Shown in pieces: positions 12,423 through 55,099 of a DNA stretch of 64,000 nucleotides. The translations under genes were made by a program, and so were the position numbers. The notes under the pieces were generated by a model, which worked only from the letters and a program-made list of their open reading frames with translations, ran no database searches and was not told where the DNA came from. This DNA comes from Streptantibioticus ferralitis (GTDB lineage Bacteria > Actinomycetota > Actinomycetes > Streptomycetales > Streptomycetaceae), in assembly GCF_029223525.1 (NCBI RefSeq), contig NZ_JARHTQ010000002.1, positions 496,001 to 560,000 on the forward strand. Reading direction: 5' to 3'. Each line of letters opens with the position of its first letter. The first letter of the stretch is position 1.

Positions 12423-13595
12423 TCATACGTGCTCGTGTTCGCATGCTTCGTCGATGTCGTACGTGTCCCACGCCGGGAATGGGTCTGCGACGGTCGCCCA
12501 CTGGCCCTGCCCCGCTGCGCGTTCGGCGTCCGTGACGAGACATGCTTCCAGTGCCCTGCTCAGGGCTGCGGACTGGAGACCGGTTCCGATGAAGACCAGT
12601 TCCTGGCCCTGGTCGGTCGAGGCCGTGCGCGCGCCGGAGGGTTCGAAGCGGGCGACCGCGCCGGCCTGCGACCACAGCCCCGTCACGTGCGGCCGGGTCG
12701 CGAGGACGAAGAACCCCTTGGAGCGCAGCACGCTGCCGTACTCGCCGCTGTCCAGGCCGCCGGTCACGAAGTCCCACAGGCGACCGGGGTGGAAGGGGCG
12801 CTGGGAGCGGAAGACCGTGGAGGAGATGCCGTACTCCTCGGTCTCCGGAGTGTGGTCTGCGTTGAGTTCCATCACCCAGCCGGGGGCCTGCTGTGCGCGC
12901 TCCAGGTCGAAGCGGCCGGTGCCGAGGATCTCGTGGGGCGCGACACGGCCGTGCCGCGCGGTGATGATCCGGGCGGGCGGGTTGAGGCGGGACAGTGTGG
13001 CGCGCAACTGCGCCGATTGCGCCGCGTCCACGAGGTCGGTCTTGTTCAGCACGATGACGTCGGCGAACTCGACCTGGTCCATGAGGAGATCGCTGACGGT
13101 GCGCTCGTCGTCCTGGTACTGGTCGAGACCGCGCGCGGTCAGTTCGTCGCCGTCCGCGAGCTCCGGCAGGAAGTTGGCGGCGTCCACGACGGTGACCATG
13201 GTGTCGAGCCGCGCTATGTCGCCGAGGGTGGCGCCGTCGTCGCGGGGGAAGGCGAACGTGGCGGCGACCGGCATCGGCTCGGAGATGCCGCTGGACTCGA
13301 TGAGCAGGTAGTCGAACCGGTCCTCGCGCGCCAGCCGGTCGACTTCTTCCAGTAGGTCGTCGCGCAGGGTGCAGCAGATGCATCCGTTGGTCATCTCGAC
13401 CAGCCGCTCCTGTGTCCGCGAGAGGGCGGCGTCGCCGTCACGCACCAGTGCGGCGTCGATGTTGACCTCGCTCATGTCGTTGACGATCACCGCGACGCGC
13501 AGGCCGTCGCGGTTGTTCAACACGTGGTTCAGCAGCGTGGTCTTCCCCGAGCCGAGGAATCCGGACAAGACGGTGACCGGAAGGCGTTCTCCCAT
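12423..13595 (-). CDS. CobW/COG0523 GTP-dependent zinc chaperone
   Basis: 390 residues. Walker [10 protein letters not shown] at 12-20, the metal-binding CxCC motif GCICC at 71-75, a Walker B region [11 protein letters not shown], and the guanine motif NKTD. The C-terminal CobW_C domain ends in the metal-binding-looking tail [11 protein letters not shown]0523 GTPases insert or redistribute zinc when it is scarce. The start lies 7 nt after the stop of a cysteine-free L32 gene, so the two are one transcript, and a Zur-like box precedes them. The role is thus zinc-starvation metallochaperone. Confidence 0.92.
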
Positions 13596-30690: not shown

Positions 30691-30888
30691 TGAGCATGAA
30701 GATCACGAAGAGTCGCGAGACGTTACCGAGAAAGGTTCGATGTGCTCGCCGCGCTGGCCGAATGGGCCGGTGCGCACAAAGCCGCTATCTATCTCCAGGC
30801 GCAGGGCGACAACATCCCGGCGCTCCAGCTGTACGAGCGGACGGGGTTCAGTGAAATCTGCGGTTATCGCTACCGCACCGCAGGATGA
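30691..30888 (+). pseudogene. GNAT acetyltransferase C-terminal remnant
   Basis: The frame around 30721 reads VLAALAEWAGAHKAAIYLQA, then GDNIPALQLYERTGFSEICG and YRYRTA before a stop. This is the end of a GNAT domain (motif B, ADN..A..LYERxGF). The acetyl-CoA-binding motif A and everything before are absent. Confidence 0.7.
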
Positions 30889-30921
30889 GCCTCAGCTGCT
30901 GTCTCCGTACGAATAGGGTGA

Positions 30922-31024: not shown

Positions 31025-31255
31025 TCAGATGCCGGCGAAACCGGAAAGACCCGTCTGGACCGGGACGGGGCCGGTGACCTGGAGGCCCGCGCCACCCGAG
31101 ATCCCCGCACCGGCCAGCATCGACAGACCGGGAAGGGCGGGCAGAGCGGACTCGGCGGACTGGACGACCTCGCCGAGGATACCGCCGGAGACGTTGTCCA
31201 GGTCGCTGTCGGCGATCTCGCGCGTCTCGACCTGGGGGGTGAAGTCCTTACGCAT
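31025..31255 (-). CDS. Orphan Gly-Gly-leader peptide (RiPP- or bacteriocin-like precursor)
   Basis: 76 residues from an ATG with GAAGGGA about 11 nt upstream. Residues 1-25 form a charged leader (MRKDFTPQVETREIADSDLD then NVSGG), whose acidic-hydrophobic helix and terminal Gly-Gly resemble leaders cut by double-glycine peptidases. The 51-residue remainder is uncharged except for two glutamates and rich in Gly, Ala, Leu, Pro and Ser (SALPALPGLSMLAGAGISGG). It has no cysteine, so thioether bridges are impossible and it is not a lanthipeptide in the usual sense. No LanM, peptidase-transporter or immunity gene is nearby. Alternatives are a pore-forming bacteriocin or a signalling peptide. Confidence 0.6.
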   Translation of the reverse strand: MRKDFTPQVETREIADSDLDNVSGGILGEVVQSAESALPALPGLSMLAGAGISGGAGLQVTGPVPVQTGLSGFAGI

Positions 31256-31709
31256 GGCTAGCCATTCCCTTCACTGCATTTTCGGGGGGTGTCGAACTGA
31301 ATTCGGCCGACCGGCTGGCGGGCCGACTCGACCGTGCACGGTCGCCTGGTATCCGGGAGCCAGATGTGCAGCCTTCCGCTTGACGCGAGATCAAAGCACG
31401 TCAGCGGGGTGGTCGGCCAGCACGACCTGTCCGTAATTTCTGTAGACGTTCTGGTATCTGGACATGCCGCCAGGTGGCGTTTATCGCTGGATGGTGACGG
31501 TTCCTTCACACGCTTTTCGGTGGCCGGCGCTCGTGAATGGTCCCCTGGTGTTGCCGCAGGGGGACATATCAACCCTTAAGGCGTGCGGCTGTTCGGTGAA
31601 GTGAGGGCCTGTAAGGAGAGTGTGACCTTTCTGGATGGATAGCGCGCACCGGTGACCAACCCGCCCGCGCTTGGGCCATGGAAGCGAACGTCTCACGAAT
31701 GGCCGGGTC
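31256..31709. other. Intergenic gap, nothing recognised
   Basis: 454 nt upstream of the leader-peptide gene. It must hold that gene's promoter, and the 3' end of the LD-carboxypeptidase lies at its far side. I see no repeat, ORF with homology or strong hairpin. Confidence 0.5.
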
Positions 31710-32755
31710 TCAGTACGTCACGGTGATCCGCCGTGCGGGGCCGTCCATGCGCACCACACCGCCGTACGGAATCACCAGTTGTGGATCGGTGTGGCCGAAG
31801 TCGACGTCGAAGACGGCCATGGTGTCCGGGGCGTACGCCGCCAGCGCGCGCAGTACCGACTCTCGCTGCTCATCCGCGTAACGCCGTTTGTCCTCGGCCG
31901 CGTTCGGCTGCTGGAAGGACCAGGCCTTGGCACGGCCCATCATGAGAGCGGGGAAGCGGGCCAGCAGACCCCGCTCGCCCAGTTGCGCAGGATGCGGAAC
32001 ACATCCTCTGCGCAGGGCAACTCCTCGGAGGTCTCCACGAAGAGCACATCGCCCTGGTAGGCGTCGGGGTCGTGCTCGATCTCGCGGTCGGCCATCAGCA
32101 GCCAGGAGACGATCTCCAGGCTGCCGCCCCAGGAGCGGCCTTCGACGACCAGATCGGGCTGGTGCCAGATCCAGCCCCCGGCCGGTTGCGACTGCGGCTC
32201 GGCGTCGAAGGTGGCCGGATCGGCCCAGTCGCGGGCGGTGTCGCGGTAGCTCTCGGCGGGACGAAGCTCGTAGGGACCCGAGGTGAACAGAGCCGCGCGG
32301 ACCGAGTCGGCGGTCATCGGGTGGAGGGCGTACGGGCGGCCGATCTCGTTCATCACGCAGGCGCCGTGATAGCCGACGATGCCCAGATTCCGCAGAAAGA
32401 GCAGCAGGTTGGTGTTGTCGCTGTAACCGAAGAAGGGCTTGGGGTTGGCACGGATCAGCTCCCGGTCCAGCAGCGGTAGCACGGTGATCTGGTCATCACC
32501 GCCGATGCTGGCCATGACTGCCTTGACCGTCGGATCGGCGAACGCGGCGTGCAGGTCGTCGGCGCGTTCCCGCGGAGTCGAGTCCATCTTCCGGGTCGCC
32601 GGATATTCCACCGGTTCCAGACCGAACTCCGCACGCAGCCGCCGGAGCCCCAGCTCGTACGGGAGTGGGAGAGCCCCCGCCAGCCCGGAGGACGGCGAGA
32701 CGACCGCTATACGGTCGCCGGGCATGGGCTTGGGCGGATAGGCCGGTGACTTCAT
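31710..32755 (-). pseudogene. S66 LD-carboxypeptidase (MccF/LdcA-like), single frameshift
   Basis: Two adjacent frames together encode a full S66 enzyme. The first (from ATG 32755, 271 codons) has the catalytic serine region FFGYSDNTNLLLF and the glutamate region SWGGSLEIVSWLL, then derails after VFRILRNW. The second holds GERGLLARFPALMMGRAKAW and the catalytic histidine GHTDPQLVIPYGG. One extra G in the GGG run near 31977 would restore the frame. The family trims muropeptides or detoxifies microcin C-like peptides. The product is inactive as written, but a sequencing error is a real alternative because every motif is intact. Confidence 0.8.
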
Positions 32756-51058: not shown

Positions 51059-54000
51059 TCAGCGGGACGCCGATCCCGCTCCTGAGCGCAGCCGCCTGGT
51101 GCCGCGCCGACACTGCCTTGAGCCCTGACGGCCGCCGTCCGCCGAGGGGAGGCGCATCGCACAGCGGGCGACGGCGCCGGGCGTCCAGCGGGCCACCGGG
51201 TTGCCGAGCCAGCGGGTGCCCGCCGGGACATGTTCGCCGCCCATCACCAGGGACGAGGGGCCGACTGCGGCGCCGTCGCCGATCACCGCGCCGGGGAGGG
51301 CGATGGAGTGCGGCCCGAGGGTTGCTCCCGGCCGCAGCTGGACCGCGTCGACCCGCATCAGGCGGTCGTGGAACAGGTGCGTTTGCAGCACGCAGCCGCG
51401 GTTGACGCTCGCCCCGTCCCCGAGCCGGACCAGATCGGGCTCCGGCAACCAGTGGCTGTCGCACCACACACCTCGTCCGATGTGTGCGCCCAGCGTGCGC
51501 AGCCAGACGTTCAGCAACGGCGTGCCGACCAGATGGTGGCCGAACCAGGGGCTGGCCAGCGTCTCGACGAAGGTGTCGTACAACTCGTTGCGCCACACGA
51601 ACGAGCTCCACAGCGGGTGTTGGCACGGTGTGAAGCGCCCGACCAGCACCCACTTCGCCGCGGTGGTGACCAACGACGCGATCACACCACCGGCCAGCAG
51701 CAGCGGGCCGACCAGGGCGATGGCCGCCGTCCAACCGAAGGCGCTGACCAGTTCCTCCAGGGCCAGGAACACCGCGTCGGCGAGGACGGCGCCGCACAAC
51801 AGGGGGACTGCACGGCACAGTTCGATCGCGGCGCGGGCGACCACCAGGTGCATGGGCGGCTGGAAGGTGCGGCGTGGGTCGACGTGGTCGGGGCGGCGCG
51901 GCACGCTGAAGCCGGGGCGCCCCAGCCAGGACGTGCCGGGATCAAGGTGTGCGGGTGCGTCGGACAGGACGCCGATCAGGGCGTGGTCGGGCAGCGCACG
52001 GCCTGGCCCGACGATGCCGGAGTTGCCGACGAACGCCCGCCGTCCGACCGCGGATCGCCCCAAGCGCAGCCACGGGCCGTGCAGTTCGTACGGGGCGAGC
52101 AGCGTGTCGTCCGCGAGGAACGCGCCGCGCTCGACGCTGGTGAGCCGGGGCAGCGTCAAGGCGGTGGACACCTCCGCTCGGTGGCCCACCTTCGCGCCGC
52201 AGAGCCTGAGCCACAGGGGGGTGAGGAGACTGGCGTAAAGGGGGAAGAGCAGCCTACGGGCCTGGTCCATCAACCGTGACGTCACCCACGCACACCAGGC
52301 CACCCGGCCGGACACCGGATGAGATCCGGGTGTGAGCGCCGCACCGGCCAGGCGGACGATGACCGCCACCAGTGCCGCGTAGCTCAGCACGGTCAGCAGC
52401 GTCCCGACCGGCACCGCCCACGGCAGCTCTTGGACGAGGACGCCCGGAGTCAGGCCGGTGCCGCTGGCGCTGTCGAACAGGATGAAGGCGGGCAGCAGGG
52501 CGAGCAGGGGCAGGATGTCGAAGCCGAGCGCGGCGGTGGCGTAAGCCGTGGGCCACCATCCGCGGCCCGTCGGGCGTTCACGGTGTTGACGGAACACCGC
52601 CCCGTCGACCTCGCCCGTGGGCCGGGCTGGCGTACCGCTCCACACCTGGCCGGGCACCACCGTGCCGGTGACACAGGCACCCGGCGCGATGTGCGCGCGC
52701 TGTTCGACGAGCGCCCCGGGCAGCAGCATCGCGCGGGTGCCGACGCGGGCGTCCGCGCCGATGCGCACAGCGCCGAGGTGGAGCACATCGCCGTCCAGCC
52801 ACCACCCGGTGATGTCGGCCTCCGGCTCCACGGCGCAGCCGTCACCGAACGCGGCCAGCCCGGTGACCGGCGGTAGCGCGTGCAGGGCCACATCGCGGCC
52901 GACCGTACAGCCCACGGCCCGTGCGAACAGCGTCGCCCAGGGGGTGCCGAGCAGGTTCGGCATGCCGAGCGTCATCACCGTCCGCTCGGCCGCCCACAGC
53001 CGCAGATGCACCGAGCAACCCCGCGGGTACGCGCCGGGCCGCACACCCCGGGTGAGCAGGCGGGCCACCCCCGCGCAGATGCCCAGCCGCGACGGAGCGC
53101 TGCAGAGCGCCAGCCATCCGCCGAGGACCACCCACCACGACAGCCGCGGGATGCCCGGCGGCGGGCCCGTCACGTTGTCGAGGGTGGCGAGGGCGAGCAG
53201 CCAACGCAGTCCGACGACGGTGAACAAGGCGACCAGGACAAGGGCTTGGACCACACCGGCACGGCGCGGGGTCGGCCGTACGACACGGTCTGCCCGGTGC
53301 CGCTGGCCGAGCGTGTCAAGCCGTTCGGCCAGGGCGCACAGGGTCGGGCAGCGGTAGACGTCGGTGACGGAGACGTCCGGGAACCGCTCACGCAGCGCCG
53401 AGACCAGCCGCGCCGCGGCGAGGCTGCTACCGCCGAGCGCGAAGAAGTCGGATCCCGCGGTCACCGGCACGGCCAGCAGCCGTCGCCAGTGGCCCGCGAG
53501 CCACCCCGTCGTGCCGCCCAAGTCGGCGTCCTTCACCCCGGCTTCGGCCGGTGGCGGCAGCGGCCAGGGCAGTGCCCGGCGGTCGATCTTGCCCGAGGTG
53601 CTCGTGGGCAGTTCTTGGATGACGGCGATCCGGGGGACCAGCGGTGGCGGGAGCCTGCCGCGCAGATGATGGCGGGCGGCCGCCACGTCGAAGCGGGAGC
53701 GGCCATCGGCCACCGACTCGTCGGGCACGACGTATCCGACCAGCACCTGGCCCGCTGCCGCGGTGCTGTGTACGGCCGCGGCGGCGGCCCTCACCCCCGG
53801 CAGTGCCCGCAGCGCGGTGTCGATCTCGCCCAGCTCAACCCGCCGCCCAGCGATCTTGACCTGGTCGTCGGCGCGGCCGACGAAGGCCAGGCCCTGCGGA
53901 TCGGCACGCACCAGGTCACCACTGCGGTAGACGCGCTGACCAGGCAGCGCCGGGTGGGTACGGAACGCCTCCGCGTCCCGGACGCCGTCGAGGTACCGCG

Positions 54001-55099
54001 CGGTCCCCACCCCGGCGATCACCAGTTCGCCGGTCGCGCCCCACGGCACCGGCCGCCCCTCGGCGTCCACGACCGCGACCTCCCAACCGTCCAGCGGCCT
54101 GCCGATGCGCACCGGCTCGCCGGGCACCAGCCGGGCGGCGCAGGCGACCACCGCGGTCTCGGTCGGCCCGTAGGTGTTCCACATCTCCCGCCCCGCGCCC
54201 AGGCGGTCGACGAGTTCCTCCGGGCATGCCTCACCGCCGACGATGAGCAGCCGTACCCGGTCAAGCGAGGCGACCGGCCACAGCGCCAGGAGACCGGGAA
54301 CCGTGGAGATCGCGGTGATCCCGTGGTCCACCAGCCAGGGCCCGAGGTCAGTGCCCGCGCGGACCAGCGAACGGGGAGCCGGGACCAGACACGCGCCATG
54401 CCGCCACGCCAGCCACATCTCCTCGCAGGACGCGTCGAAGCCCACCGACAGCCCCGCCAGCACCCGGTCACCCGGTCCCAGCGGCTCAGCGCGCAGGAAC
54501 AGCCGGGCCTCGGCGTCCACGAGGGCCGCGGCGGAGCGGTGGGTGACCGCGACGCCCTTGGGCTGCCCGGTCGTGCCGGACGTGAAGATGATCCACGCGT
54601 CGTCCCCCGGAGACGGCCGCCCCGGCCGACGCCCAGCAGCCGTCACACCGGGACAGCGGACGGACATCCCGGCACCGACGACAGCGCGGACACCGGCCTC
54701 GGACCAGATCATCTCGGCCCGCTCGTCGGGGTCGTCGGCGTCTACCGGCACGTAGGCCGCACCAGCCCACAGCACGGCGAGGATCGCCACGTACAACTCG
54801 GCCGTGCCCGACGCGACACGGACGCCGACCCGGTCCCCAGGGCCGATGCCCATGTCACGCAGCCTGCCGGCGAACGCGGTCACCTCGGCGAACAGGGTGC
54901 GGTAGTCCAGCGGGGAATCACCGGCGGCCAGGGCCGGGGCGGTGGGGTGCGCCCGCACCGTCGACTCCAGGATGTCCACCAGCGTGCGCGGCGCCGCCGC
55001 GGGTACCGTCGGCCACCGCGCCCCGCCCGGCACGGGAGCGGCCGGTTCACCCTGCGAGCCAGGATTGCGGCCCGTCGGAAGGACACACTTCGATGGCAC
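51059..55099 (-). CDS. Pls/PosA-family single-module NRPS (poly-amino-acid synthetase)
   Basis: About 1346 residues. Adenylation domain, residues ~40-515, with core motifs FTSGTTGQPKGV (172-183), GFDASCEEMW (220-229), NTYGPTE (308-314), YRSGD (391-395) and the catalytic lysine SGKIDRRAL (502-510). Carrier domain with phosphopantetheine serine 559 in FFALGGSSL. Then six membrane helices flanking three hexapeptide-rich, acyltransferase-like domains, the exact order of epsilon-poly-L-lysine synthetase (Pls, 1319 residues), whose three tandem C-like domains join amino acids by isopeptide bonds. No condensation or thioesterase domain is present. The acidic residue in DASCEE suits a basic substrate. 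GTG 55099 has GAAGGG upstream; earlier in-frame starts exist. Confidence 0.92.
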   Translation of the reverse strand: MPSKCVLPTGRNPGSQGEPAAPVPGGARWPTVPAAAPRTLVDILESTVRAHPTAPALAAGDSPLDYRTLFAEVTAFAGRLRDMGIGPGDRVGVRVASGTAELYVAILAVLWAGAAYVPVDADDPDERAEMIWSEAGVRAVVGAGMSVRCPGVTAAGRRPGRPSPGDDAWIIFTSGTTGQPKGVAVTHRSAAALVDAEARLFLRAEPLGPGDRVLAGLSVGFDASCEEMWLAWRHGACLVPAPRSLVRAGTDLGPWLVDHGITAISTVPGLLALWPVASLDRVRLLIVGGEACPEELVDRLGAGREMWNTYGPTETAVVACAARLVPGEPVRIGRPLDGWEVAVVDAEGRPVPWGATGELVIAGVGTARYLDGVRDAEAFRTHPALPGQRVYRSGDLVRADPQGLAFVGRADDQVKIAGRRVELGEIDTALRALPGVRAAAAAVHSTAAAGQVLVGYVVPDESVADGRSRFDVAAARHHLRGRLPPPLVPRIAVIQELPTSTSGKIDRRALPWPLPPPAEAGVKDADLGGTTGWLAGHWRRLLAVPVTAGSDFFALGGSSLAAARLVSALRERFPDVSVTDVYRCPTLCALAERLDTLGQRHRADRVVRPTPRRAGVVQALVLVALFTVVGLRWLLALATLDNVTGPPPGIPRLSWWVVLGGWLALCSAPSRLGICAGVARLLTRGVRPGAYPRGCSVHLRLWAAERTVMTLGMPNLLGTPWATLFARAVGCTVGRDVALHALPPVTGLAAFGDGCAVEPEADITGWWLDGDVLHLGAVRIGADARVGTRAMLLPGALVEQRAHIAPGACVTGTVVPGQVWSGTPARPTGEVDGAVFRQHRERPTGRGWWPTAYATAALGFDILPLLALLPAFILFDSASGTGLTPGVLVQELPWAVPVGTLLTVLSYAALVAVIVRLAGAALTPGSHPVSGRVAWCAWVTSRLMDQARRLLFPLYASLLTPLWLRLCGAKVGHRAEVSTALTLPRLTSVERGAFLADDTLLAPYELHGPWLRLGRSAVGRRAFVGNSGIVGPGRALPDHALIGVLSDAPAHLDPGTSWLGRPGFSVPRRPDHVDPRRTFQPPMHLVVARAAIELCRAVPLLCGAVLADAVFLALEELVSAFGWTAAIALVGPLLLAGGVIASLVTTAAKWVLVGRFTPCQHPLWSSFVWRNELYDTFVETLASPWFGHHLVGTPLLNVWLRTLGAHIGRGVWCDSHWLPEPDLVRLGDGASVNRGCVLQTHLFHDRLMRVDAVQLRPGATLGPHSIALPGAVIGDGAAVGPSSLVMGGEHVPAGTRWLGNPVARWTPGAVARCAMRLPSADGGRQGSRQCRRGTRRLRSGAGSASR

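Follow-up and report, generated by a model that had tools for sequence, protein, structure and literature searches.

An orphan gene of 76 codons in the 64,000-nucleotide stretch of DNA analysed here (the window) encodes a Gly-Gly-leader peptide of a widespread family, and a paralogue on another contig of the same genome lies directly upstream of a complete NHLM-type export operon. At a probability of roughly two in three, we consider the orphan product to be an unmodified secreted peptide that is co-regulated with, and cleaved and exported by, this distant exporter, and that may act at the hyphal surface. The leader, promoter and ribosome site of the orphan match those of the exporter-linked sister gene, which makes it a probable second substrate of the exporter, encoded at a distance from it. 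The features of the window that bear on this reading are as follows.

31025..31255, minus strand: orphan Gly-Gly-leader peptide gene, 76 aa plus stop, identified by translation, open reading frame and homologues
31181..31255, minus strand: 25-residue leader (residues 1-25), which ends in NVSGG and is conserved across 33 members of the family
31028..31180, minus strand: 51-residue core (residues 26-76), anionic, hydrophobic and without Cys, Lys or Arg
31265..31272, minus strand: ribosome-binding site GAAGGGAA, near-universal in the peptide family
31304..31334, minus strand: predicted 5' hairpin, -19.4 kcal/mol, common to the exporter-linked paralogue and others
31373..31441, minus strand: promoter-like bipartite element, TGG ... 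TGCTTTGATC, with boxes near 31414-31421 and 31389-31399
31710..32755, minus strand: LD-carboxypeptidase (S66), split over two frames, a neighbour outside the system

The orphan peptide gene exists as first described. Its protein consists of the leader MRKDFTPQVETREIADSDLDNVSGG and the core ILGEVVQSAESALPALPGLSMLAGAGISGGAGLQVTGPVPVQTGLSGFAGI, with an ATG start, a stop codon and a strong ribosome site; the translation agrees with the initial annotation on a cysteine-free Gly-Gly-leader precursor with a 25-residue leader and a 51-residue core, and the core mass given there as about 4.7 kDa is matched by a computed average of 4717 Da (monoisotopic 4714.5 Da; pI 4.05, charge -2). Homologues in other genomes reach E 1e-20 and carry conserved leaders, the absence of which had been named as grounds for discarding the gene, and the leader motif matches nowhere else when the window is read in all six frames. 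These homologues, the unique leader motif and the excess of synonymous change described below place the gene far beyond chance. LigD-type matches from NCBIfam and Pfam were judged spurious and nothing else matched; a tblastn search of plasmids gave no match, and AlphaFold2 run on the single sequence gave an uninformative model with a pLDDT of 57.

As also stated in the initial annotation, modification, protease and export genes are not found nearby, and the 64 kb window holds neither an exporter nor a leader-type C39 peptidase. Two proteases that do lie in the vicinity are unrelated, namely a subtilase 10 kb away and the split LD-carboxypeptidase next door. The latter was dropped as a part of the system after related loci showed no recurrence of it; its two frames overlap (31940-32755 and 31710-31943), reflecting a frameshift or sequencing error. 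Elsewhere in the window, a fragment at 30740-30889 on the plus strand resembles by eye the C-terminal end of a GNAT acetyltransferase, the complete gene being absent, and a 1306-aa frame at 51059-54979 on the minus strand, 20 kb from the peptide gene, has an NRPS/adenylation-enzyme-like start, with no link seen.

Rather than an isolated oddity, as it had first appeared, the orphan is a member of a widespread Streptomycetaceae family. A first survey of 100 relatives found 29 genomes with a match at E<=0.001, and a search of 298 Streptomycetaceae genomes with profile A1 detected the family in at least 165, with two to four copies in at least 62 of these and a single detected copy in 103; scoring covered no more than 20 candidates in each genome, which makes these counts lower bounds. 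A scan of named genomes placed the family in Streptomyces, Actinacidiphila, Streptacidiphilus, Streptantibioticus and a Kitasatospora, and Streptomyces sp. RPT161 supplied the nearest named locus. The 57 members read are built alike, with a ribosome site resembling GAAGGGAA, a conserved leader with the consensus M(R)xDFTPQVETREIxDxxLDNVSGG, whose [VI][SA]GG end is common to orphan and exporter-linked members, and a variable core. The cores are rich in Gly, Ala, Val and Leu and end in Gly-Leu or Gly-Ile in 40 of the 57; cysteine is absent from 56 and present in one, any Lys or Arg occurs in five, and net charge runs from -4 to 0. Tandem peptide-gene pairs in some genomes (L060:9661-10397, L062:9237-9973, L013:774 and 1726, L028:1184 and 1692) are suggestive of two-peptide units.

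These properties bear on a possible bacteriocin role, in which the unmodified orphan peptide, by itself or as one partner of a two-peptide bacteriocin with the paralogue, would leave through the same distant exporter and target competing streptomycetes. The short GG-ending leader, the C39 ABC exporter and the presumably unmodified core reproduce the layout of class II bacteriocins, and the hypervariable cores and tandem pairs are consistent with such a role; however, class II bacteriocin cores are typically cationic, whereas the orphan core carries a charge of -2 without Lys or Arg and the family cores are anionic with almost none. No immunity gene was seen for the orphan and no recurrent immunity-like gene at related loci, the single detected copy in 103 of the 165 genomes also counts against such a role, and the bacteriocin leader model gave no match to the orphan at E<=10. 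We thus regard a bacteriocin as unlikely and a surface-active or structural role as the most likely, ahead of a classical cationic bacteriocin. The initial suggestion of an unmodified membrane-active or signalling peptide is weakened in its classical cationic membrane-active part, because the cores are anionic and nearly free of Lys and Arg.

The source genome carries at least two family copies, the orphan on contig C33 and the paralogue on C55 (L031:9719-9934). The genes that follow the paralogue pass the curated cut-offs for TIGR03794 (the NHLM HlyD adaptor), TIGR03796 (C39 peptidase/permease/ATPase) and TIGR03797 (a second ABC subunit), and the orphan leader is 88% identical to that of this exporter-linked copy. 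PF03412 has a single match in the 8.8 Mb genome, inside the NHLM operon, making this its only C39 peptidase; the initial annotation had thought a distant processing system possible and had proposed a C39 peptidase transporter elsewhere in the genome, and this operon answers to both. One PF03412 match was likewise found in each of ten relatives, five of them with orphans, and every other genome carrying an orphan-subfamily member also encodes just one C39 peptidase. The single C39 peptidase and the common leader point to cleavage and export of the orphan by this machinery.

Across the 298 genomes, the peptide and full-length TIGR03796 were found together in 161, the peptide alone in 4, the exporter alone in 11 and neither in 122 (Fisher p 1.7e-64, with peptide presence taken from profile A1 detections, which are lower bounds). 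In three of the four peptide-only genomes a C39 domain lies 1.2 kb from the peptide and the exporter match falls below the cut-off. The genomes with a full-length NHLM exporter and no profile A1 peptide (G003, G048, G103, G115, G148, G152, G157, G181, G186, G229 and G235) hold either other precursor families or missed members. The best peptide copy adjoins the NHLM operon in most genomes and extra copies do not, just as the paralogue adjoins it and the window gene does not; since such unlinked extra copies recur in other genomes, adjacency marks the type of locus and not the peptide family. Co-variation of leader and exporter within genomes, a further check proposed at the outset, was not seen: similarity of orphan leaders to the exporter-linked leader was 0.64 in the same genome versus 0.62 in other genomes (p 0.38), leaving co-evolution unsupported, although this null result would also be expected if the leader were conserved throughout.

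The export operon is present at 13 of the 20 related loci examined, and no other gene turns up with that regularity; the recurrent set at exporter-linked loci consists of the peptide gene and the three genes for export. This composition bears on a RiPP with remote biosynthesis, in which an enzyme encoded elsewhere would modify the core, for example by Ser/Thr dehydration. NHLM exporters often serve modified peptides (PMC2887384) and the genome encodes one LanC-like domain, unlinked to the orphan; nevertheless, 56 of the 57 cores lack the Cys for thioether rings and no recurrent modification enzyme was found beside the exporter-linked copies among the 20 loci, making this reading improbable. 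A class II "type A2" lanthipeptide was rejected for the orphan, whose core has no Cys for such rings, and the original view that it is not a conventional lanthipeptide thus holds; no LanM-type enzyme was found in the window and none recurs at related loci. A Streptomyces melanosporofaciens gene that clusters with one for a C39 peptidase was named a "type A2 lantipeptide" by BLAST (PMC13047742), and we argue that this label is a misnomer for such genes.

The orphan and exporter-linked copies also share their 5' region. Upstream of both lies the same arrangement of TGG, about 17 nt and TGnTTtgATC, and a sequence model built without the window sequence found the element at 31373-31441 with E 2.6e-10. 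Over the whole genome this model returned the paralogue, a member of its training set, at 2.5e-11 and the orphan at 3.5e-8, with noise from 0.065. A stricter model built from exporter-linked copies only returned, over 8.8 Mb, the paralogue at 1.4e-9, the orphan at 5.1e-5 and the next match at 0.13; at E<=0.015 it also picked up nine of 16 further orphan loci. The shared element is a good but not conclusive sign that orphan and paralogue are co-regulated, because paralogues have common ancestry and the likeness of their 5' DNA could stem from duplication instead of retention for co-regulation. Between the element and the ribosome site lies the hairpin, predicted at -19.4 kcal/mol at the orphan and -24.9 at the paralogue. 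Across 18 sequences, pairing in its 7-bp stem reaches 91%, versus 7-48% when slid, with three two-sided changes, and support for it is moderate because these changes may be inherited together; RNAalifold predicted no structure over the whole 5' region, and the hairpin was later tested as a named stem. Rfam holds no family for the 5' region, and scans for sigma-70 promoters and intrinsic terminators found nothing. A SigE-like ECF sigma factor gene lies about 1-3 kb from several peptide genes, both orphan and exporter-linked (L038, L042, L044, L045 and L061), and possibly has a regulatory role.

The closest relatives of the orphan (in G001, G345, G375 and G255, with two in G009) span three genera, and the cores of this subfamily have a common C-terminal motif near SGGxxxQxxGPVSGQAGFSGxAGI. 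No export operon lies beside them in the loci read. Synonymous change exceeds non-synonymous change in every subfamily pair, with dN/dS of 0.13-0.24 among G345, G375 and G255, and comparison of the window gene with its relatives gave a pN of 0.04-0.14 for the leader and 0.26-0.31 for the core. Close relatives occupy different neighbourhoods; the G375 and G255 loci, from two species, are syntenic, indicating that the orphan is a settled locus there. A membrane protein of about 84 aa without a Pfam family (LADIAAxFLGLWILLYLLEANxxNVF...) is encoded within about 2 kb or less of four independent orphan peptide genes (L052:10776-11018, L053:10196-10438, L054:8197-8439, L058:10532-10774 and 13046-13270, L059:8258-8500), and is absent from the exporter-linked loci read and from the 64 kb window. 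That the orphan arose by duplication of the exporter-linked gene and is now decaying, with expression or export lost, fits its worn surroundings (a transposase remnant and the split S66 gene) and its patchiness within the genus, where the third genome yielded no orphan, but is very improbable given the intact frame, ribosome site, promoter-like element and hairpin and the synonymous excess maintained across all pairs, three genera and a locus syntenic in two species.

The evidence is best explained by export of the orphan peptide in trans. The same regulator would probably switch on orphan and paralogue through the common promoter-like element, the C39 domain of the NHLM exporter would recognise the orphan leader and cut after Gly-Gly, and the 51-residue core would be secreted without any change by modifying enzymes. 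The mature anionic, hydrophobic peptide, rich in Gly, Ala, Val and Leu, would then reside at or outside the hyphal surface, where it would most likely be surface-active or structural. Taken on its own, the surface role is the weakest step and is held tentatively, at somewhat below even odds; it draws on one expression study of SCO0753 of S. coelicolor, which we matched by architecture, not by sequence.

SCO0753 is a peptide of 77 aa, 57% hydrophobic and free of Cys, encoded upstream of SCO0754 (HlyD-like) and SCO0755-0756 (ABC) (PMC6629963). It is the top over-expressed gene, with a rise of more than 60-fold, in a strain whose activating sco5282 mutation brings dispersed growth and small, loose, fragile pellets, whereas the sco5282 null mutant hardly expresses it; the authors proposed an altered hyphal surface and raised an analogy with SapB (PMC6629963). 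Its expression also rises in an aor1 mutant (PMC5733086). Like SCO0753-SCO0756, which are conserved across Streptomyces (PMC6629963, PMC5733086), the paralogue locus places a hydrophobic Cys-free peptide gene upstream of an HlyD-like gene and two ABC-exporter genes, and the family appears SCO0753-like in architecture and properties; unlike SCO0753, the window gene has no exporter linked to it. The role of this strongly regulated type of peptide becomes more directly testable as a result.

The NHLM exporter was defined by Haft et al. in 2010, who foresaw further precursor families (PMC2887384). The system described here resembles NHLM/NHLP systems in its TIGR03794/03796/03797 exporter, Gly-Gly leader, hypervariable core and substrates possibly encoded far from the exporter (PMC2887384). 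Unlike NHLP and Nif11 precursors, with leaders of about 70-83 aa, the orphan has a 25-aa leader, a core without Cys and no modification enzyme, and assignment to either class was rejected, the NCBIfam NHLP/Nif11 leader models giving no match at E<=10. The exporter system is already known and is uncharacterised in Streptomyces, and the orphan probably adds to it a co-regulated substrate exported in trans; our literature search found no report of remote substrates, the shared promoter element or the hairpin. These results indicate additional, unlinked substrates for the exporter of an abundant Streptomyces peptide system that is itself uncharacterised; such substrates escape neighbourhood-based genome mining, and the promoter element offers a way to find them.

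Like SapB and the chaplins, the orphan would be a small, hydrophobic peptide secreted by a streptomycete. SapB belongs to the lanthipeptides, and chaplins carry Sec signals; the orphan differs from both in its GG leader and its association with a C39 exporter. A wider reading, which we consider doubtful, is that a single C39 exporter of the NHLM type handles several unmodified, anionic and hydrophobic peptides encoded at scattered sites in the genome; with a dedicated promoter and a 5' hairpin in common, these would make up a regulon forming or remodelling the hyphal surface. If true, this would constitute an unrecognised multi-substrate streptomycete secretion regulon, a GG-leader counterpart of SapB and the chaplins.
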